Positions 16,168-26,396 of a DNA stretch of 30,383 nt are shown piece by piece (positions within the stretch are counted from its first letter, which is position 1; every line of letters starts with the position of its first letter). The translations under genes were made by a program, and so were the position numbers. Location of the stretch: positions 1 through 30,383 of the IMG/VR virus record IMGVR_UViG_3300044492_000031; one strand, written 5' to 3'. This DNA comes from a virus. Under the pieces are notes generated by a model, which had not been told where the DNA came from, ran no database searches, and worked only from the letters and a program-made list of their open reading frames with translations.

Positions 16168-16683
16168 ATGGCGCTGTACCGCCTATTCTTTGGCGCTCAA
16201 CAGGCAGGCCCGCCTACGGGCAACGTCACCGTCTACCCCACGGGCGTTGCCGCTGGCGCGGCGCTGGGCACGGCGCTGTATGTTGAGCCACCGGTTGGTT
16301 GGGATAGCACCATCAACTACTTCGGCAAAATCACGTTCAGCGATAACAACAAGATAGCGACGGCGGCAGCCAACTCCGGCAGCAACGAACTTTGGTCGGT
16401 GGTCACGCACAACAACGGCAAGTATTTTGCGGAGGTGAAATTCAACGGCGGCGTGGCCCCGGCAGTGGGTCTGCTGTCACCCATATTCAACGGCCCCTAC
16501 ATCACCCAGAATGGGGATGTCTATGTCTCACGCGCCGCAGGCACCACGCCCTATGTGGGCCTGTTTGCGCCGTTGGTGCAGGGTGACGTGATAGGCATGG
16601 CCGTAGACATAGATGCGGGCAAGGCATGGTTCCGCGTCAACGGCGGGCCGTGGAACAATGACCCGGCGCAGGGGCCTGTCTGA
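16168..16683 (+). CDS. SPRY-like fibre protein, apparently truncated
   Basis: This encodes 171 aa. Residues ~20-37 (VTVYPTGVAAGAALGTA) are one copy of the ~24-residue repeat that recurs in the next gene. Residues ~47-170 resemble a SPRY/concanavalin-like sandwich (GKYFAEVKFNGGVAPAVGLL, then GDVIGMAVDIDAGKAWFRVNGGPWNN). The matching domain in the next gene runs ~35 residues further past the WNN position. Here the protein stops shortly after, so the domain seems to lack its last strands. It could be a remnant from recombination or a real short form. Its stop overlaps the next start (TGATG). Confidence 0.6.
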   Translation: MALYRLFFGAQQAGPPTGNVTVYPTGVAAGAALGTALYVEPPVGWDSTINYFGKITFSDNNKIATAAANSGSNELWSVVTHNNGKYFAEVKFNGGVAPAVGLLSPIFNGPYITQNGDVYVSRAAGTTPYVGLFAPLVQGDVIGMAVDIDAGKAWFRVNGGPWNNDPAQGPV

Positions 16684-19600
16684 TGTCGGTTTACCTTGCT
16701 CCAATTGTCCCAACTTCTGACAAGGCCGCTGAAACATCCATCGGCACCTACGCGACAATTAGAAATGAGACGGGGCCAACCGCAACGCCGGGAGCTACAA
16801 CCCGGCTTGGTCAGCGCGGTGTCGCTGGCCCATACGCTTGTGCTCAGTATTTTTTGACAATTGATACACGGGCAATCCCGGTAGGGACTAATGCTACATT
16901 AACTCTCAGTGCAACTGCCGCAAACGCAGCAAATGCGGATACCCTAGAAGTTCGTGAGGTTTCATCAGCAGCGAACCTGATAGCTGGCGATAGTCTTGCA
17001 TCGTTCCCTTTATTGGGCACAGCAGCGGGCCCAACCGCAACCGGCAGTTTCTCGATTCCCATCAATACGACTTCTATGTCGAGGAGCAGCGCGACCATCC
17101 TGCTGGTCCATTCACAAAAGCAGCGAACGGCAGTTGCTCCACCTTCTACGGATGGGATTACCATTTCCACAATGGCCGCAGCGGCGGCGAGCAGGCCACA
17201 GCTTGTCTTGGCCGGGCCGTGGTCCCTCGTTGGCGTAGGTGCCGTTGCTGAGACCGCCACCACAACGCTGACGTTGACCGAACCGGCGGGCGTCCAGGCC
17301 GGTGATCTGCTGGTGGCCTGTATCGCCGGTCGAGGTTTAAGCGCGACAAACGGAGTTTTGACCGCACCGCCTACTGGGTGGACGTTTGTCGGCAACAAAG
17401 GTCAAGGCAACACGTCGACGAACACCTCTGCACTTGCAGACGGTTGTATGTGCTATGCAATACGGGGAGCGTCAGCGCCGAGCTTGGTATTTAATCCAAC
17501 GTTCGCGAGTTTGGCTCTGGGACGGATTGTCGCTTATCGCGGCAACGCGCAGACTTCGCCGCTCGATGCTTCAACCACGGTTGCCACGGCCAGCGCCATC
17601 ACGGCAGTCAGCGTCACCGGCCTGACGACGACACAGGATGATGACCTCATCGTCGCCATGTGCGCTGGCGGGCAAGAAGCTGCGTGGTCGTCTTTCGGGG
17701 CGAATATTCCGGGGTTCCCCAGCGGTGCGACCGACACCACAACCGCGCCGAAGACGGATACATGGACCGAACGCGCCGACAGCAACACCGTTACTGGCGC
17801 TGACACGTCGCTGGCCATCTTCGATGCAGTCAAGGCGGCTGCTGGCGCAACAGGCAACCTGAGCGCCACTGCCTCGCTTGCTGCCGGTCATGTCGTTATC
17901 GCCGGGGCGTTCAAGCTCGCGCCGCCGTCAACGGCGGATGCGTGGAATGCCAACGACCTGTCGGCCGGTGTCACGCTTTCAAACAGTGACAAGACCGCCA
18001 CACATGCGGCGGGTGCCGTTTCTCACGTTAAATCAACATCGTATCAGACCACAGGGAAGTGCTATGTAGAGATATCGTTAACCACAGCCGCCCCAACTAC
18101 GGTTTTCGTTGGTATTTGTAAGAGCACTGCGGTTACATCCGCAGCGGTTATTACAAGTGCTAACAATGGAATACGCTATGCAAATGCTGGCGATGCCTAT
18201 GGTAACGCGGGCTATATAAATTCGATAGGGACATATACGTCTGGCGATATCATAAGCATTGCTGCGGACCTTGATAATGATCTGTTTTGGATAAGGAAGA
18301 ACAGCGGAAACTGGAACAACAGCGGCACCGCCAACCCGGCGACCGGCGTTGGCGGGATGAGTTCCGCGACAAGCGGCGCGCAGGCGGTCTTCATGTATAC
18401 GGACGCCGCCGGGGCGTTCAACGCCACCATTCGCACGGAAGCTGCCGAACTCACGCAGACCACACCGTCAGGGTTCCTGTCATGGATGGGCGAAGCGCTC
18501 ACCGTTGACCCCAACGTCACCGTCACGCCAACGGGCGTCAGCGCGGCAACAGCGGTAGGCACGGCCAGCGTCACCGCTGCGCAGAACGTCAGCATTGATG
18601 CCACGGGTGTTGCAGCAACCACGGCGCTGGGCACGGCCACGGCAAGCGTCAAGGTCAGCACCAGCGCCACCGGCCAGACGGCAGCCACGGCTCTGGGCAC
18701 ACCAACAGTCAGCGGCAAAGCCAACATCACGGGCACTGGCGTCAGCGCTAGCGCACAGGCGGGCACCGCCACGGCCACGGGCGTTACCAACGTCAGCACC
18801 ACACCTGCGGGCGTCAGCGCTGCAACGGCTGCGGGTGCGGTCACCGTCACCACCAGTACAGTTGTCAACGTCAGCGTCACACCAGCGGGCGTCAGCGCCG
18901 CCATGGCTCTAGGCACTGCCACGGCCACGGGCGTCACCAACGTCAGCACCACGCCTGCGAGCGTGGCCGCAGCCACAGCGCTGGGCACCGCTACGGCCAC
19001 CGGCAAGACCAACATCAGCACTACGCCTGCGAGCGTGGCGGCAGCCACGGCGCTAGGCACCGTCAGCGCCTCAGCTGGCGGCAGTGTCAGCACAACGCCA
19101 GCGGGCGTCAGCGCTGGCACGTCTCTAGGCACCGCCACGGCCACCGGCAAAACCAACATCAGCACCACGCCGAGCAGTGTCAGCGCGGCTACGGCGCTGG
19201 GCACCGCCACAGCCACGGGCGCTAGTGCACCCAACGGCTTCAGCCTTGACCCCGGTCTCAACTACGCAGTCTATGCCGAAATCAACAACAGCGATGTCGT
19301 ACGCATCAACACGGCTCCCCCGGATAACCCTGCCGGTTACGACAACTGGTACGGTGAAGACGCGGCTGTACCGGTCAACGTCACTGTCAGCCCAACCGGG
19401 GAGGCCGCTGGGGCTCTGCTGGGCGCGGTCACCGTCACGGGTGGCCTCAGTGCCAGCGTCACGCCAGCGGGCGTCAGCGCCGCTGGGGCTCTGGGCACGG
19501 TCACGGCCACGGCAGGCATCGGCATTGTTGACCAGATCATGGAGATCGGCGGCAAGACGCTGGCCAGTGCGGGTGATTGGCGGCCTCTGGACACTCTTGA

Positions 19601-22346
19601 CGCTGAGGTTGCTGTCACCAGCATCGTCAGCCAAGTTGGCTGCACGCGCACGTGGACCGCGCCCGGTGGCAAGATCGTTGCCAATGGTGCGCCGCTTGCA
19701 GACCACAACAAGGTGCTGTCAGTTGCTACGGCTCTGGGCACAATCAACGTCACCATCAAGTCAAGCGGCCTTGACGCTGACGGCAATGACCTTGCGGTGT
19801 CGTATTCAGCCTCAGACATAGCAGAGGTTGCCGCAGCGTACCGCAGACCGGAACTGGCGTTTGGTGACAATATCCTGTTGCGTACCGGCGACGGCCCGTA
19901 CAACCCGCTGCAAAACGTGGATATCTTCCGCGCCGCAGCTGAGGGTGCGATTGACGGTACATGGGTGCCGCCATCACTCTATAACCCCGACCAGCCTGAT
20001 CAAGGCTATGATCTGGATACCGGCAGCTTCATCACGATCACCAAGCACGCCGGTGCCAACCCGGTCGCCAGTAAAATCCGCATTCGCGGCAATGGCGGTA
20101 GCGTCCACGGCGGCGCGATGTACATCCGCGTCAAGGGTTTGAAAATCGTATTCACGCCGCTGACCACATTTGTCTACCCCGGCTCAACGGCATTCAACCT
20201 ATGCGGCCTTGTATGTGATCTGGGCGGTCACACGGTTGCTTTTGATGAAAATGATGTATCCAGCCAGTATGACGAAGCCCTTGCTGATGGGATGCAGCAG
20301 TATTCCGGCATTTATTCAGCTACCGGCCCGGCATGGATACAGGATAATGACATTCACCATGTCGCGTGCGGCATCTCGCTCGGTGCCGGTCTCGTAACGT
20401 CAAGGTCTACCGATACGGCAGTCGTAGGTAACAACCTTTATCATTGGTATGCCGATTGCATCGGAGTGAACCCAGCCGACCGTCAGCTAATTGCCTACAA
20501 CCACATCTACGACATACGCATCCATACGCCCGGACTGTTCGGACCCAACAACGATTTGCATCCTGACTGCTGTCAGTTTGCAAACGCATCTATGACCGCC
20601 ACCAACGTCCGGGTCATCGGCAATCGCCTCCAGCAGGGCGATTATGTGATCGACCCGGCGAACTCCAGCCACGGCGCGCAGGGCATCCCGTTTGGTGGCC
20701 CCAACCCGGCGACGTGGATCATTGGCTCGATCACCGACACAACGCTGACGGTCACTGATCGCGGCACTATTGCCAACAGCGGCGGGCGCGCGGTTGCCAT
20801 CACTGATGGCATGATGGTCTACGGTGCGGGCGTTGCGCCCGGCACGCAGATCGTGTTCCCGCTTCTGAGCGGCACGGCGACGGGCACCTTTACCGTTGCC
20901 GTCTCAATACCGCAGAACGTTGCCGCTGGGCCGCAGATGGCGATCCACGAAGTCCGTGACGCCGTGATCGCCGGCAACTTGGTCGTCATGGCCGAGCAGG
21001 CCAACCTGATCAACCCCGGTGGGTGGGTCAATGCAATCATCCGTAACAACACTGCCGTTCAAGACACGCAGGGCGCACTGGGCAACGGCACGATCTACCC
21101 GGTGAACCCAAGCGGACATGATATCCAGTATAATGTTGCCAACATGGTTGGCCCTGACGTTAACCAGATCGGCACAATAGTCAGGACACCATCAACAGGC
21201 TACGCGCAAAATAAGCTCGTATCACAAGCCAACTACGCAACCGTCTTCGCAGCCCCGGCCAGCGGCACTGCCGTCACCAACCTCGCAGAGCAATTTGACA
21301 TTCTGCCCGGCGTCACCACGCCCGGTGCCCCTGACATCATACCCGGTGCCAACTCAACCTACATTCAGCATGGTGAGCGCCTGCCCGGCCAGAAGTGGGA
21401 TCGCACGGGCCGCGAGCATTACTTCCCGTGGGAAGTCATCACCAACGTAAACGTCACGCCAGCAGGGGTCAGCGCGTCTGCCACAACCGGGGGAGTGAGC
21501 GTAGCAGTCGGCGGTGGGGTCAGCACACAGCCAACTGGATTGGCATTGACCGCCACTACCGGTACCGCTACGGCTACCGGCCAGCAGAACGTGTCAACAC
21601 CCGCCAGCGGCAACAGCGCTGCCACGCAGGTGGGGACACCATCTGTCAGTGTCAGCACGTCGGTGACGCCTAACGGCCTTACAGCAGCGTCTGCACTGGG
21701 TGCCGCCACGGCTCTGGGCAAGCAAACCGTAGCTGTGGCGGTCACCGGGGTCAGCGCCGCAGCGGCGTTGGGCGGGGCCAGCGCTTCAGCTGGCGGCAGC
21801 ATTAGCATCACACCAGCTGGCGTCACCGCCAGCGCGCAGGCAGGCACGCCAGCGGCCACCGCCAAGCAGAATGTCACTGTCACGCCTGTGGGCGTTGCTG
21901 CGGCCAGCCAGCTGGGTGTATCCACAGCCAGCGCCAAGATCAACATCAGCACCATGCCTGCGGGCACGGTGGTCACCACGGCGCTGGGCGCGGTCACCGT
22001 CACCGCCAAGATCAACGTCAACGTCATGCCGGTGGGCGTGGCGGCGGCCACGGCTCTGGGTGGGGCCAGCGTCTCAGCCGGTGGCAGCATCACGGCAGCA
22101 CCTGTGGCCGTCACGGCGCAGGCGCAGCTGGGCACGGTCACCGTCACCACCAAGCAGGCCGTCACTGTCACCCCTGCGGGCGTGTGGACCGCAGCGGTGA
22201 CCGGCACGGCCACGGCGGTGGGTACTACAGGTGGCATAGGTGTCTGGATGGGCACCGCATGGCAACAGAAACCGGTCAAGGTATGGACTGGCAGCGCATG
22301 GGCAACCAAGCCGCCCAAGACGTGGACTGGTAGCGCTTGGGTTTAA
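16683..22346 (+). CDS. Giant modular tail fibre/spike with beta-helix domain
   Basis: This encodes 1887 aa. Domains in order are: two beta-sandwich N-terminal modules (1-~175; ~176-418, with PPTGWTFVG and a repeated AGDLLVA/DDDLIVA pattern); a SPRY-like domain (~419-600); ten copies of a ~24-residue repeat (611-848); a unique 50-residue spacer; two more copies (899-945); a right-handed parallel beta-helix region (~946-1587, with short turns such as IQDNDIHHVACGISLG and NDLHPDCCQF); eleven more repeats (1588-1849); and a Trp-rich C-terminus with three GxAW units (1850-1887). The beta-helix suggests a polysaccharide-binding or depolymerising spike; Asp/His in DLHPD are candidate active-site residues. 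No enzymatic activity can be claimed from sequence alone. Confidence 0.82.
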   Translation: MSVYLAPIVPTSDKAAETSIGTYATIRNETGPTATPGATTRLGQRGVAGPYACAQYFLTIDTRAIPVGTNATLTLSATAANAANADTLEVREVSSAANLIAGDSLASFPLLGTAAGPTATGSFSIPINTTSMSRSSATILLVHSQKQRTAVAPPSTDGITISTMAAAAASRPQLVLAGPWSLVGVGAVAETATTTLTLTEPAGVQAGDLLVACIAGRGLSATNGVLTAPPTGWTFVGNKGQGNTSTNTSALADGCMCYAIRGASAPSLVFNPTFASLALGRIVAYRGNAQTSPLDASTTVATASAITAVSVTGLTTTQDDDLIVAMCAGGQEAAWSSFGANIPGFPSGATDTTTAPKTDTWTERADSNTVTGADTSLAIFDAVKAAAGATGNLSATASLAAGHVVIAGAFKLAPPSTADAWNANDLSAGVTLSNSDKTATHAAGAVSHVKSTSYQTTGKCYVEISLTTAAPTTVFVGICKSTAVTSAAVITSANNGIRYANAGDAYGNAGYINSIGTYTSGDIISIAADLDNDLFWIRKNSGNWNNSGTANPATGVGGMSSATSGAQAVFMYTDAAGAFNATIRTEAAELTQTTPSGFLSWMGEALTVDPNVTVTPTGVSAATAVGTASVTAAQNVSIDATGVAATTALGTATASVKVSTSATGQTAATALGTPTVSGKANITGTGVSASAQAGTATATGVTNVSTTPAGVSAATAAGAVTVTTSTVVNVSVTPAGVSAAMALGTATATGVTNVSTTPASVAAATALGTATATGKTNISTTPASVAAATALGTVSASAGGSVSTTPAGVSAGTSLGTATATGKTNISTTPSSVSAATALGTATATGASAPNGFSLDPGLNYAVYAEINNSDVVRINTAPPDNPAGYDNWYGEDAAVPVNVTVSPTGEAAGALLGAVTVTGGLSASVTPAGVSAAGALGTVTATAGIGIVDQIMEIGGKTLASAGDWRPLDTLDAEVAVTSIVSQVGCTRTWTAPGGKIVANGAPLADHNKVLSVATALGTINVTIKSSGLDADGNDLAVSYSASDIAEVAAAYRRPELAFGDNILLRTGDGPYNPLQNVDIFRAAAEGAIDGTWVPPSLYNPDQPDQGYDLDTGSFITITKHAGANPVASKIRIRGNGGSVHGGAMYIRVKGLKIVFTPLTTFVYPGSTAFNLCGLVCDLGGHTVAFDENDVSSQYDEALADGMQQYSGIYSATGPAWIQDNDIHHVACGISLGAGLVTSRSTDTAVVGNNLYHWYADCIGVNPADRQLIAYNHIYDIRIHTPGLFGPNNDLHPDCCQFANASMTATNVRVIGNRLQQGDYVIDPANSSHGAQGIPFGGPNPATWIIGSITDTTLTVTDRGTIANSGGRAVAITDGMMVYGAGVAPGTQIVFPLLSGTATGTFTVAVSIPQNVAAGPQMAIHEVRDAVIAGNLVVMAEQANLINPGGWVNAIIRNNTAVQDTQGALGNGTIYPVNPSGHDIQYNVANMVGPDVNQIGTIVRTPSTGYAQNKLVSQANYATVFAAPASGTAVTNLAEQFDILPGVTTPGAPDIIPGANSTYIQHGERLPGQKWDRTGREHYFPWEVITNVNVTPAGVSASATTGGVSVAVGGGVSTQPTGLALTATTGTATATGQQNVSTPASGNSAATQVGTPSVSVSTSVTPNGLTAASALGAATALGKQTVAVAVTGVSAAAALGGASASAGGSISITPAGVTASAQAGTPAATAKQNVTVTPVGVAAASQLGVSTASAKINISTMPAGTVVTTALGAVTVTAKINVNVMPVGVAAATALGGASVSAGGSITAAPVAVTAQAQLGTVTVTTKQAVTVTPAGVWTAAVTGTATAVGTTGGIGVWMGTAWQQKPVKVWTGSAWATKPPKTWTGSAWV
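18513..19226 (+). repeat. Tandem ~72-bp coding repeats, block 1 (ten copies)
   Basis: Ten in-frame copies encode the consensus N-V-S-T-T-P-A-G-V-S-A-A-T-A-L-G-T-A-T-A-T-G. Copies 6-10 are the most alike at DNA level, which points to recent unequal recombination. Two further copies lie at 19377-19517. Confidence 0.9.
21444..22229 (+). repeat. Tandem ~72-bp coding repeats, block 2 (eleven copies)
   Basis: Eleven in-frame copies of the same ~24-residue unit follow the beta-helix. They are more diverged than block 1 but keep the T-P-x-G-V and L-G core. They probably form a repetitive beta stalk. Confidence 0.88.
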
Positions 22347-22356
22347 GGAGAACGTG

Positions 22357-22584
22357 ATGACCCTTACTGGTCTGGTACTTGGTCTGCTCAACATAGCTCT
22401 GGTGGTGGCCATCATGATGCTGGTGGGGGCTGTCATCGTGTGGGGGCTGTCACTGATGGCCATGCCGGTGCCAGCTACGGTACAAAAGGGGTACATGGTG
22501 GTGGTGGGGCTGGTCGCCCTGTACATGGTTGCGGCACTGCTTTTTGGCATACCAACCATTCATGTGATCACTAGCGGCATTTAG
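22357..22584 (+). CDS. Small two-helix membrane protein (holin-like)
   Basis: This encodes 75 aa from the ATG at 22357, with AAGGAG at 22345-22350; reading the frame from 22240 would be an overlap artefact inside the fibre gene. Two hydrophobic helices (LVLGLLNIALVVAIMMLVGAVIVWGL, residues ~6-31, and MVVVGLVALYMVAALLFGI, ~47-65) flank a short loop. It ends in PTIHVITSGI. Small proteins of this type are common in phage late operons. It may be a second holin or antiholin, or a membrane protein unrelated to lysis; sequence alone does not decide. Confidence 0.6.
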   Translation: MTLTGLVLGLLNIALVVAIMMLVGAVIVWGLSLMAMPVPATVQKGYMVVVGLVALYMVAALLFGIPTIHVITSGI

Positions 22585-22970: not shown

Positions 22971-23540
22971 TTAGGCAGCCGTGAAGGCGTTGGCACCCTT
23001 GCGGGCGCGGTGCTTTTTCTTGAGCAGGAACAACCCACCAAGCGCGGTGCCAAACAGCGGCAGCGCTGCCGGGATTGGCACGGCGCTGACCGCGATGTTG
23101 CCACCATAGCCAGAGGTGCCGCCGCCCTGCCCGGTGAACTGGGCGTAGTAGTTGCCCGCAGGCAGAATGGCAGCCCCGGCTACAAACTGGCACATAGAGC
23201 CGCAGGGTGCTGCCCCTTCAGGGCCGAACAGCAGCGCATCGTCGCTGGTGCCGAACAGATTGTCAACTCCAAAGTTGTATATCGACGCCGCGAAGTTGCT
23301 GATGAAGTCGGTGGCCTTGGGGTAGACGTTGGTGACGCTGGCAATGGTCAGAAAGTTCTGGGCATTGGCCAGCTGGAACAGATACTGATCGGTGAAGCTG
23401 GTGCCGCCCACCGAGTTCTTGAAAGCGCCTTGGGCACTGGTGGGGTTGACGCCAAGGTCATTGATAACGGCGGCCTTGCCGGGTGAAGCCGCAAACGCCA
23501 ACACGGCGGCTGCGGCCACAGTTACAAGATATTTGCGCAT
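22971..23540 (-). CDS. Secreted PEP-CTERM sorting-domain protein
   Basis: This encodes 189 aa from the ATG at 23540, with TGAGG eight bases upstream; frames extended further upstream would include terminator sequence. A signal peptide (MRKYLVTVAAAAVLAFAASPGKA, cleavage near 23) is followed by a beta-rich body with a Cys pair (APCGSMCQF). Residues 154-189 form a PEP-CTERM signal: VPIPAALPLFGT, a hydrophobic helix (ALGGLFLL) and a basic cluster (KKKHRAR), then a short tail. In the known pathway an exosortase (EpsH-like) recognises this signal and the protein ends on or outside the outer surface. No exosortase is in the window, so a host enzyme would be needed. The body function is unknown. Confidence 0.8.
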   Translation of the reverse strand: MRKYLVTVAAAAVLAFAASPGKAAVINDLGVNPTSAQGAFKNSVGGTSFTDQYLFQLANAQNFLTIASVTNVYPKATDFISNFAASIYNFGVDNLFGTSDDALLFGPEGAAPCGSMCQFVAGAAILPAGNYYAQFTGQGGGTSGYGGNIAVSAVPIPAALPLFGTALGGLFLLKKKHRARKGANAFTAA

Positions 23541-23576
23541 TAGGTTAACCTCATGAGTTGGTAGTTGCAGGGTAGA

Positions 23577-23615
23577 AAATAGGGCGGCCATTCTGGACAT
23601 AAAGGGGGCCGCCCT
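23577..23615 (-). terminator. Rho-independent terminator downstream of second PEP-CTERM gene
   Basis: A 9-bp perfect stem, AGGGCGGCC (23581-23589) with GGCCGCCCT (23607-23615), is followed on the minus strand by ATTTTC. It lies after the stop at 23634 and only about 40 bases before the start of the next minus-strand gene. Confidence 0.75.
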
Positions 23616-23633
23616 TACCTCACTACGGCCTGA

Positions 23634-24398
23634 TCAAGCCGTGGTGAGATTGGTGTTGCGGCGGGCGCGACTACGCGCCTTGGCCTTGAAAGCGCCCAGA
23701 CCGGCAATTGCCGTGCCAAACAGCCACAGGCCCGCAGGCAGCGGCACTGCATTGGGCTGCGCTACGAGAAAGAAGCTGTCAGGCCCGTCATTTGCGCCGC
23801 TGATGCGTGAGTAGAACAGCAGCTGGTCACCCACGTTGATGCCCGCCAGCGACGCGCCGGTCAGCAGGTAGTCAGCATAGCCGGTGCCGTTGTGGATAGA
23901 TGGCAGCTCCGTGCCACCCGGCCCCGGTGAGTATGACGCCAACACGGTGTGCGTGGTCAGGTCCAGAAAGAAGAAACTTTCCAGCGTCTGCGCCTTGTTG
24001 GTGTCGTTCATGTCAACACCAATGCTGAAGGTCAGGTTGGGGTCGTTCATGCCCAGCAGGTAGTTGCTCAGCGTGCCAAACGTGTAGGCCGTGCCGATGG
24101 TGTCACCGGCAAGATGATCCTTGAAGATGCCCGACGAAAAGAACGCCAGATCACTGGCATTGCCGGTGTTGCCAAAGTCATTGTAGCCGAAATTGGCAGG
24201 CTGCTGTGGCTGAGCGCCACCGCAGATGAGGCACGGCGCATCTTTGGGCTGATTGGCGGTTGGCGTCGGCGTTGCCTCAAGCTGCAAGGCAGTACCGCCA
24301 AGCGTCCAAGCCTGACCGCCGAGTGTCACGGTGGCTGCGTTGGCCGCACCCATGCCCAGCAGAAGCAACAGGGCTGCTGTCCCCAATATGGTTTTCAT
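23634..24398 (-). CDS. Secreted PEP-CTERM sorting-domain protein
   Basis: This encodes 254 aa with AAGGGG about 10 bases before the ATG. A signal peptide (MKTILGTAALLLLLGMGAANA, cleavage near 21) precedes a body with a CxxC (CLIC, ~56-59) and a Ser/Thr-rich beta pattern. The body resembles typical PEP-CTERM exported proteins in composition. Residues 218-254 are a clear PEP-CTERM signal: VPLPAGLWLFGT, hydrophobic AIAGLGAF, and the basic cluster KAKARSRARR, then NTNLTTA. Membership is well supported by the signal; the enzymatic or structural role is unknown. It is the neighbour of another PEP-CTERM gene in the same orientation, both downstream of an XRE regulator. Confidence 0.85.
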   Translation of the reverse strand: MKTILGTAALLLLLGMGAANAATVTLGGQAWTLGGTALQLEATPTPTANQPKDAPCLICGGAQPQQPANFGYNDFGNTGNASDLAFFSSGIFKDHLAGDTIGTAYTFGTLSNYLLGMNDPNLTFSIGVDMNDTNKAQTLESFFFLDLTTHTVLASYSPGPGGTELPSIHNGTGYADYLLTGASLAGINVGDQLLFYSRISGANDGPDSFFLVAQPNAVPLPAGLWLFGTAIAGLGAFKAKARSRARRNTNLTTA

Positions 24399-24507: not shown

Positions 24508-24783
24508 TTATTCAAACCGTACTGCGGTGAACCCTAACGCCTTGAACAGCATGATGCAGGTGAGCATGCGCGGGCTGCGCGTCTCACGGCTCATGATGCG
24601 TGACACCGTAGTGGGCGTCAGGTTGGCAAGACGGGCAAGATCCTTCAGCTTACGGCTCTTATCAGCCCGGTGCCATTGCTGGATCAGCTTGGCCAGCAGC
24701 TTGACGCCCTCAAAGCCCACAAGCTCATCCAGTGAGACGTGCAGACCACGCGTGGCGGTGATGGGTATGACTTTGGCGTTCAT
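24508..24783 (-). CDS. XRE-family helix-turn-helix regulator
   Basis: This encodes 91 aa. An HTH_3/XRE-type helix-turn-helix is visible at ~46-66 (LKDLARLANLTPTTVSRIMSR), followed by a short helical C-terminus (SPRMLTCIMLFKALGF). It is a small Cro- or antitoxin-sized regulator; no toxin partner is seen next to it. AGGGGG lies five bases before the start, and a strong promoter with an overlapping dyad sits upstream, consistent with autoregulation. It could control the PEP-CTERM genes downstream or the helicase gene upstream. Confidence 0.85.
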   Translation of the reverse strand: MNAKVIPITATRGLHVSLDELVGFEGVKLLAKLIQQWHRADKSRKLKDLARLANLTPTTVSRIMSRETRSPRMLTCIMLFKALGFTAVRFE

Positions 24784-24841: not shown

Positions 24842-26347
24842 CTATATCCATGCCGCCAACCCGTCTTGCACCACGGCGCGGGCAATGCTGCGCTTGGTGC
24901 GCAGGGCATTGATGATCTTCTCATCCACAGTACCGGGGGCTACGATGTCAACGTAGGTGACGGTGCCCACGGTGCCTATGCGATGGGTGCGGTCTTCAGA
25001 CTGATCCCGCACTTCCCAATCGTAACCGTTTGAGTAATAGATCACCAAGGTGGCTGCGGTCCACGTGCGGCCACGCGCCCCGGCTTGGTCGGTGGCCACC
25101 ATGAAGCGGCGGCGGCCCGCCTGAAAGTCGGCCTCATATTCTTCACGGTCGGGGGCACTGACGCCGCCGTGCCATGCGGCAACGGCATCTTCGCCATAAA
25201 GCTCACGCAGCCGCTTGATGACCAGCGCCACGTCTTCACGCCAATGGCACCAGATCACCACCTGCTCCTGCACGTCAGCGGCGCTGATGATATGCTCAAC
25301 GGCAGCCATGCGGTTGCTGTCAAGGCGGCGCACCACACCGTCATCCGTCTTGATGTGGCCGCAGATGACGCTGTGCATGCGCATCAGCTGGGTGACCACC
25401 AACTCGGTAGACACCGGTACAAATTCCATGCTGTCCTTGACGTTGACCGTGGCCAAGGCAAAGTCACGTAGCTCCTTGTAAACGGTCTGTTGCTGCTTGG
25501 TCAGTTCAACTTCCCAGCGCCTGTAAACCTTGGGCGGCAAGTCAAGGCAGTCCACCTTGCGCCGCCTGAAACTGTGCAGGCTGACAAGGTGCTGAAGCTC
25601 TTCCGTATTGAGCGGGCCACCCTCCTTCTTGAAGCTGAAGCCATGCCCCTGCATGATGAACATTTTGTTGAAGTGCGCCTGAAACATGACGAAGTGTTTG
25701 AACCCCAGCGGGTTAGCACCGGGCCGCAGGAACTCAAACTGCGCCCACAGGTCAGACTGTGAGCCGGTGGATGGTGAACCTGTCATGATGCGGCGCATTA
25801 CGGCCAGCTGAGCCAGCTTGTGCAGCAAGCGGGTGCGCTTGGCCTTGGGGTTCTTGATGACGGTTGACTCGTCAACCACCATCATGGTGCGGTGGGTCTG
25901 GCAGAACTGCCTGACAAGCTCAGCGGCATCCCCGGTTGAGGCCAGCGCCTCAACGTTGATCAGCAGTATCCGGGGGCTGGGTATGCTGGTGTTCAGCAGC
26001 TGGCGGCGCACATCATAGTCAGCTTTCTTGCGGCCTGCGCGATACATGTAGGTCTGCGCGGTGTCAGCGTACTTGGCCCACAGCCAGCGCTGCACCTCAC
26101 CGGGGTTCTCGCGGCTGATGCGGCCCCAGTTGGTGTAGACGCCCTTGGGCGCAATGATGATGAGGCCGTCAACGCGGTTATCCTCATAGTTCAGCAGGAA
26201 GTCATCAAGCGCCACGCGGCTCTTGCCCAGACCCATTTCAAGAAAGTAAGCGAAAAAGTCACGCCGCCAGCCAATGGCCAAAGCCTCTTGCTGATGGGCC
26301 AGCGGGGGTGACCGGGGGGTATAGGTGTCAGGGATGTCTTGAAGCAT
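24842..26347 (-). CDS. SNF2-type DEAD/DEAH-box helicase
   Basis: Residue numbers count from a possible TTG at 26395. I prefer the ATG at 26347 (residue 17, giving 501 aa), because the upstream codons overlap the TATCAC-type repeat region and no ribosome binding site serves the TTG. Motifs in order are a Q-like HQ (34-35), Walker A GLGKS (55-59), DEST motif II (175-178), TGSPSTG motif III (205-211), and QSEDRTHRIG motif VI (465-474), typical of SNF2/helicase superfamily 2 ATPases. It would translocate on double-stranded DNA. In phages such proteins act in replication, recombination or defence against host systems; which applies here is unknown. It is transcribed leftward, away from the origin-like region. 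Confidence 0.85.
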   Translation of the reverse strand: MLQDIPDTYTPRSPPLAHQQEALAIGWRRDFFAYFLEMGLGKSRVALDDFLLNYEDNRVDGLIIIAPKGVYTNWGRISRENPGEVQRWLWAKYADTAQTYMYRAGRKKADYDVRRQLLNTSIPSPRILLINVEALASTGDAAELVRQFCQTHRTMMVVDESTVIKNPKAKRTRLLHKLAQLAVMRRIMTGSPSTGSQSDLWAQFEFLRPGANPLGFKHFVMFQAHFNKMFIMQGHGFSFKKEGGPLNTEELQHLVSLHSFRRRKVDCLDLPPKVYRRWEVELTKQQQTVYKELRDFALATVNVKDSMEFVPVSTELVVTQLMRMHSVICGHIKTDDGVVRRLDSNRMAAVEHIISAADVQEQVVIWCHWREDVALVIKRLRELYGEDAVAAWHGGVSAPDREEYEADFQAGRRRFMVATDQAGARGRTWTAATLVIYYSNGYDWEVRDQSEDRTHRIGTVGTVTYVDIVAPGTVDEKIINALRTKRSIARAVVQDGLAAWI

Positions 26348-26396
26348 GGGTTTGAGTGTAACCTCGGTCAGCCGGGGGTGCAATTGATAGGGCAAA

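Follow-up and report, generated by a model that had tools for sequence, protein, structure and literature searches.

Two neighbouring phage genes, here called gene A and gene B, probably encode substrates of a host exosortase that are sorted to the surface; we put the probability of this reading at about 0.72. Cleavage, surface location and function are inferred, with no experiment behind them. Established at the level of sequence are the signal peptide, the C-terminal tail, the presence of that tail throughout the families, the conserved core, the switching of tail class and the agreement in class between partners. The original prediction, that these are phage-delivered surface proteins using the host's exosortase, is supported. 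It is strengthened because there are hundreds of phage relatives with an ever-present, class-switching tail, partners agree in all 15 cases, and near-identical tails occur in Bradyrhizobium together with an exosortase-family gene. Exosortase processing itself, and the role also predicted in the envelope, exopolysaccharide (EPS) or superinfection, remain inferences.

The window, i.e., the whole stretch of 30,383 bases that was analyzed, comes from an IMG/VR virus record and is a phage fragment, with genes for a tape measure protein, tail protein J, a tail fibre, an endolysin, a helicase and a primase. Tail, endolysin, helicase and primase genes lie on both sides of the gene A/gene B pair. The predicted location inside a phage genome thus held, and the finding that would have refuted it, a window of host chromosome, was not obtained. 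As also predicted, the two genes run opposite to the late genes of the window; they share the direction of the upstream genes for an Xre/Cro-like HTH regulator (24508..24783, minus strand; PF01381, 24.6 bits with a cut-off of 23) and a SNF2-type helicase (24842..26395, minus strand; PF00176, PF00271 and phrog_62), which heads this leftward run. Unlike in the window, the gene lies within the late operon and on the same strand in many gene-B relatives. The predicted absence of an exosortase was confirmed by searches of the window with PF09721 and TIGR04178.

A sister phage contig of 43 kb, IMGVR_UViG_3300020000_000032, on which a terminase is present, has the same leftward run of helicase, Xre-like regulator, gene B and start of gene A, with a few extra genes inserted. 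Its gene B is 96% identical; the start of gene A is about 98% identical, and the gene is then truncated by the contig end. On the sister contig both gene B, tail included, and the start of gene A are preserved, so the finding is not due to chance. An alphaproteobacterial host is conceivable since tail J is nearest to proteins of Rhizobium and Bradyrhizobium phages (32-33% over 95-99%), but this is a hint only and the host itself is unknown. Scanning for promoters and terminators around genes A and B gave no clear excess over shuffles, and no strict sigma-54 promoter, as in cellular PEP-CTERM genes, was found in 55 upstream regions. Elsewhere in the window, a 74-aa predicted membrane protein (22360..22584, plus strand) has homologues that recur close to phage PEP-CTERM genes, and in L202 and L221 such a homologue directly follows a gene-A relative. 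Positions 16683-22346 encode a 1,887-aa protein, probably a fibre-like structural protein, in which many short Thr/Ala-rich repeats (TPAGVSAATALGTATATG) flank a larger unique middle.

Gene B (23634..24398, minus strand) encodes a 254-aa PEP-CTERM protein of the 'NDGPDSFF' family, built from a signal peptide, a beta-rich ectodomain and a VPLPA-type tail. The Sec-type signal peptide (MKTILGTAALLLLLGMGAANAA; 24330..24398, minus strand) is hydrophobic and ends in ANA-A; it was read from the sequence without a predictor and its end is approximate. The sorting tail (23673..23747, minus strand, coordinates derived from residue numbers) comprises residues 218-242, with the VPLPA motif, a hydrophobic helix and the start of a basic cluster. 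Over these residues the C-terminus AVPLPAGLWLFGTAIAGLGAFKAKARSRARR matched the VPLPA-CTERM model TIGR03370 with 27.6 bits (E 2.1e-6, cut-off 25.35), by which gene B meets the membership test of a tail scoring above a curated PEP-CTERM-class model. The AlphaFold2 model has a helix at residues 223-247.

The ectodomain of gene B (23766..24332, minus strand) is strongly conserved among phages. Fifteen columns are invariant across all 61 aligned sequences, three distant cellular relatives included, and NDGPDSFF is kept in nearly all phage members of the family. For the core, AlphaFold2 gave a confident, compact beta-rich domain (pLDDT 90.3, pTM 0.89), and in the full-length model (pLDDT 76.7) the C-terminal helix follows this domain. 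Neither model had a PDB or BFVD match at E <= 0.001 in Foldseek, so the activity of the ectodomain is unknown and a structural annotation of it was rejected. The weak matches that were found, to a segment of an Akkermansia glycosidase (prob 0.91, E 0.04) and to concanavalin A, concern carbohydrate-binding beta-sandwiches; the likeness is faint and may serve as a lead only.

Directly downstream of gene B lies gene A (22971..23540, minus strand), which encodes a 189-aa FxDxF-like PEP-CTERM protein. The original prediction had placed its start at 23600, an upstream ATG; we set it at 23540 because of the signal peptide and a Shine-Dalgarno-like GAGG. The signal peptides of both proteins have a basic start, a hydrophobic run and an AxA-type end, again as read without a predictor. 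Judged from sequence alone, the sorting tail of gene A (VPIPAALPLFGTALGGLFLLKKK..., 23010..23081, minus strand) is a borderline PEP-CTERM signal. With TIGR02595 (cut-off 16), the tail AVPIPAALPLFGTALGGLFLLKKKHRARK scored 16.7 bits at 23013-23081 in the window search against 14.3 on the whole protein, and with TIGR03370 it scored 19.2, under the cut-off of 25.35. The whole protein resembles NF038126, the 'FxDxF family PEP-CTERM protein' model (39.9 bits, E 4.7e-10), but it does not reach the curated cut-off of 50 and is regarded as similar, not as a member. The predicted combination of signal peptide and PEP-CTERM tail in both proteins therefore held clearly for gene B and is borderline for gene A. 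Its refutation by C-termini that do not score with the HMMs failed in the same graded way, gene B being clear and gene A at the margin. In two gene-A relatives, L012 (7422-7967) and L207 (4086-4649), the tail is aberrant, VPGPTxGSFxIASIxGLFK without an arginine cluster.

A search of phage genomes for other PEP-CTERM genes, which the original prediction had proposed, gave hundreds of relatives in uncultured phages, belonging to three families. In IMG/VR, relatives of gene B occur in 210 contigs (186 by single-protein query), those of gene A in 36 phage contigs, and a third family, F2, in 126 contigs; these counts partly overlap. With hundreds of relatives, a single stray acquisition by one phage can be rejected. 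None of the three families was found in 50,697 isolated phages (gene B by tblastn), and 84,980 prokaryote species genomes, scanned with the family profile of gene B, yielded no close relative. Distant relatives can escape the latter scan because it relies on conserved peptides that are short. One gene-B relative had no tblastn match in 72,556 plasmids. Three distant cellular PEP-CTERM relatives of gene B emerged from a profile search of 385 genomes of the class containing Bradyrhizobium, and the gene-B core had no hit in 399 Pseudomonadota genomes, from which no more than a rarity of relatives can be concluded.

The relatives of gene B belong to real phages because the gene adjoins terminase and portal or capsid genes in many contigs, where cluster analysis and PHROGs placed it directly after the former and before the latter. 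TerL was detected in 16 of 51 records of the gene-B family (phrog_2 alone); for the other families the count was 8 of 34 (phrog_9). In other phages gene B stands beside tail fibre/endolysin genes, beside a DNA polymerase or, in the window, beside the helicase and regulator, and the occurrence in several distinct phage contexts suggests, again from sequence alone, that it behaves as a mobile accessory gene. Since a tyrosine integrase (PF00589) was found in 6 of the 32 records tested, both temperate and apparently non-integrating phages carry the gene. The 26 records without PF00589 include many fragments, and other integrase types fell outside this test.

Tail-bearing proteins were clustered by BLAST on their cores, as the shared tail merges families. 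Members of F2, which end in DFEHYRIDV (e.g., L154 3470-4111 and L185 3055-3705), have a signal peptide and PEP-CTERM-like tails and show no sequence relationship to either gene A or gene B. Family F3 (L166 3341-4114; L192; L201; L181 1326-2252) has the PGP tail and an ectodomain ending NDGxDSF-like, as that of gene B; it is possibly a distant gene-B relative. Outside the main families, the phage-contig proteins L178 (4238-4930), L224 (4175-4837), L241 (4187-4924) and L255 (4404-5132) combine a signal peptide with similar tails or tail-bearing neighbours.

The tail is universal within families, and its class switches. Each of the 58 distinct gene-B proteins that contain NDGPDSF has a hydrophobic segment, a proline motif and three or more R/K, and tails were present in 59 of 59 distinct F2 members, which had been retrieved by core, not tail. 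In both families the tails fall mostly into the same three classes, PGP (AVPGPIVGAGLPGL...), VPLPA and PEPxxW; two F2 tails scored as 'other' by pattern are PEPxxW-like by eye. Tails of the phage families match the NCBIfam VPLPA-CTERM, PEPxxWA-CTERM and PEP-CTERM models, and no NCBIfam model covers the commonest class, PGP (PGP-GAGxPG). Purifying selection on the gene-B core is strong, with dN/dS mostly 0.01-0.1. In the pairs L054/L066 and L032/L057 the cores are 99% identical and the tails only 72-74%. The tree of gene-B cores requires no fewer than 10 changes of tail class, or 12 if 'other' is included; it is a quick tree with many weakly supported forks.

Tandem partners agree in tail class. 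On 15 distinct contigs, the window included, a gene of the gene-B, F2 or F3 family or another tail-bearing gene lies upstream of a gene-A-type gene. The ectodomains of the partners are unrelated, and every one of the 15 pairs has two tails of the same class (11 PGP, 2 PEPxxW, 2 VPLPA; permutation p 1.2e-4, or 1.5e-3 without similar or weak pairs). The pairs are not entirely independent of one another, the PGP tail itself served to find some of the PGP pairs, and the gene-A partners in L172 and L326 score low.

A possible link to the host comes from the PGP tails. Their profile matched 141 IMG/VR contigs as against five loci in the genome collection, mainly in Bradyrhizobium MAGs, and phage PGP tails are up to 91% identical over 32 residues to tails of Bradyrhizobium secreted proteins. 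Strong PGP tails occur in exactly three of 61 Bradyrhizobium genomes (G051, G052 and G491), the same three that have a divergent exosortase/archaeosortase-family protein (26-28 bits, TIGR04178). Tails and exosortase-family gene share a contig in G051 and G491 and lie within about 50 kb of each other in G491. This divergent variant was chosen post hoc, which weakens the co-occurrence statistic; with all 11 genomes positive for TIGR04178 taken as the basis, the probability becomes 0.005. The gene is present in some Bradyrhizobium (L136 113-1096; L137 1468-2424), is missed by PF09721 and is barely detected by TIGR04178. With the latter (cut-off 23), L136 and L137 scored 28.5 and 26.2 bits in the genome search, and 24.7 and, just below the cut-off, 22.7 in a scan of whole proteins. 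Both have Cys, Arg and His in exosortase-like contexts and meet membership in the exosortase/archaeosortase family. Enzyme and PGP tail may be an unmodelled exosortase/substrate pair, a suggestion that rests on co-occurrence in three genomes only. Because PF09721 was negative on these Bradyrhizobium proteins, the absence of exosortases from phages was re-tested with TIGR04178; none was found in 49 phage records with PF09721 or in 50 with TIGR04178.

According to the mechanism that we propose, Sec would export the gene A and gene B proteins via their signal peptides, and the C-terminal tail of P-motif, helix and basic residues would halt them in the inner membrane. A host exosortase would then cut the halted protein at the tail, and the released ectodomain would end up at the outer surface or within the EPS layer of the infected cell. 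The conserved ectodomain would do the phage's work, and the tail would act as an exchangeable address label, swapped when a phage lineage takes up a new host whose exosortase is of a different class. Action is likely to come late in infection where gene B lies in a late gene run; for the window, timing is unknown. EPS is held on cells by known PEP-CTERM proteins (PMC9850573), and bacteria that lose an exosortase no longer adhere to polysaccharide or form biofilm (PMC12188702); remodelling or masking of the EPS layer is therefore the most plausible effect of a phage version. Whether the effect is indeed remodelling or masking of the EPS or outer surface, against superinfection or re-adsorption of progeny, or else a loosening of the cell from its matrix, is a proposal for which the balance tips slightly to the doubtful side. 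Against the host-exosortase reading as such stand the borderline tail of gene A and a PGP-exosortase link that depends on co-occurrence in three genomes. Moreover, an uncleaved stop-transfer membrane anchor would look similar in sequence.

Such an anchor is one rival. The uncleaved C-terminal helix would hold the proteins in the inner membrane, facing the periplasm, for instance to block injection by a second phage, and the PEP-CTERM likeness would be a legacy of cellular ancestors and unused. In its favour, a helix with a basic cluster is a stop-transfer signal by itself, and the inner membrane or periplasm is where many superinfection-exclusion proteins work. However, it leaves unexplained why the same three tail classes recur in three unrelated phage families, why tandem partners agree in class and why there is a match to a Bradyrhizobium tail at 91%, and we consider it unlikely. 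Lysogenic conversion, with exosortase-routed proteins altering the surface of lysogens and not of lytically infected cells, is compatible with the routing part of our main reading. Classic morons change the lysogen surface, and 6 of 32 tested records have the tyrosine integrase. It is also improbable, given that the other 26 lack PF00589 (with the reservations stated above), that the 84,980 species genomes, where prophages would show, hold no close relative, and that the gene sits inside the late packaging/capsid run in many relatives. Still less probable is a competitive decoy, in which abundant tails would occupy the host exosortase, leaving host PEP-CTERM proteins unsorted and EPS loosened so that phage or cells are freed, with the ectodomain secondary. 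Tail class does appear to track the host, and the position among packaging and capsid genes in many relatives makes late, high expression plausible, but a pure decoy should keep its tail better conserved than its ectodomain, and the reverse holds here by a wide margin. That the genes are host chromosomal, on a contig that was misbinned or chimeric, is all but excluded, and host DNA contamination was rejected: outside these phages, PEP-CTERM proteins are cellular, and the gene-B core has distant relatives in cells, but phage genes lie on both sides in the window and the sister contig, relatives are directly flanked by TerL, portal and capsid genes, and there is no close cellular relative.

The host-exosortase reading builds on the PEP-CTERM/exosortase (EpsH) system described by Haft et al. 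(2006; PMC1569441), whose substrates likewise start with a signal peptide and have a P-x-P-like motif, a hydrophobic helix and a basic cluster at their very C-terminal end. That work does not mention phage. Here, the proposed substrates are encoded by phages without an exosortase of their own, and their commonest tail class, PGP-GAGxPG, fits no NCBIfam model. Most of the length of gene A and of its L012 relative matches the cellular FxDxF PEP-CTERM proteins (NF038126), with 39.9 and 43.4 bits, but the two stay under the 50-bit cut-off, are phage-borne and stand in tandem with a second PEP-CTERM gene. The alphaproteobacterial PEP-CTERM proteins L140-L142 have PEP-CTERM tails and resemble gene B chiefly in the C-terminal half of its ectodomain, but they are only 26-31% identical to gene B over the ectodomain and lack the CxICG...NDGPDSFF signature. 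The Ltp lipoproteins of Streptococcus thermophilus phages (PMC3952083), which serve in superinfection exclusion, are likewise phage-encoded, exported and displayed on the host surface; they differ in being anchored by the general lipoprotein pathway in a Gram-positive host, with no host-specific C-terminal label. The open-licence literature that we searched contained no report of phage PEP-CTERM proteins, and within it the predicted lack of a described system of this kind held, but absence there is no proof. The sorting route and phage surface proteins are each already known, and it is their combination, with class-matched exchangeable labels, that is probably new.

The families provide a large gene set for phage ecology that is absent from isolate collections, and for uncultured phages tail class may give a clue to which host they infect. 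The surface role of PEP-CTERM proteins, a long-standing question, becomes approachable via viruses that select strongly for one ectodomain. If the host-exosortase reading is true, this would be the first description, in the open-licence literature, of phages using the exosortase route. A bolder reading, towards which we lean by a modest margin, is that diverse uncultured phages encode secreted proteins of several families that use the host exosortase to reach the cell surface, with labels swapped to match the class of the host; if true, it would amount to viral exploitation of a bacterial sortase-like sorting route.
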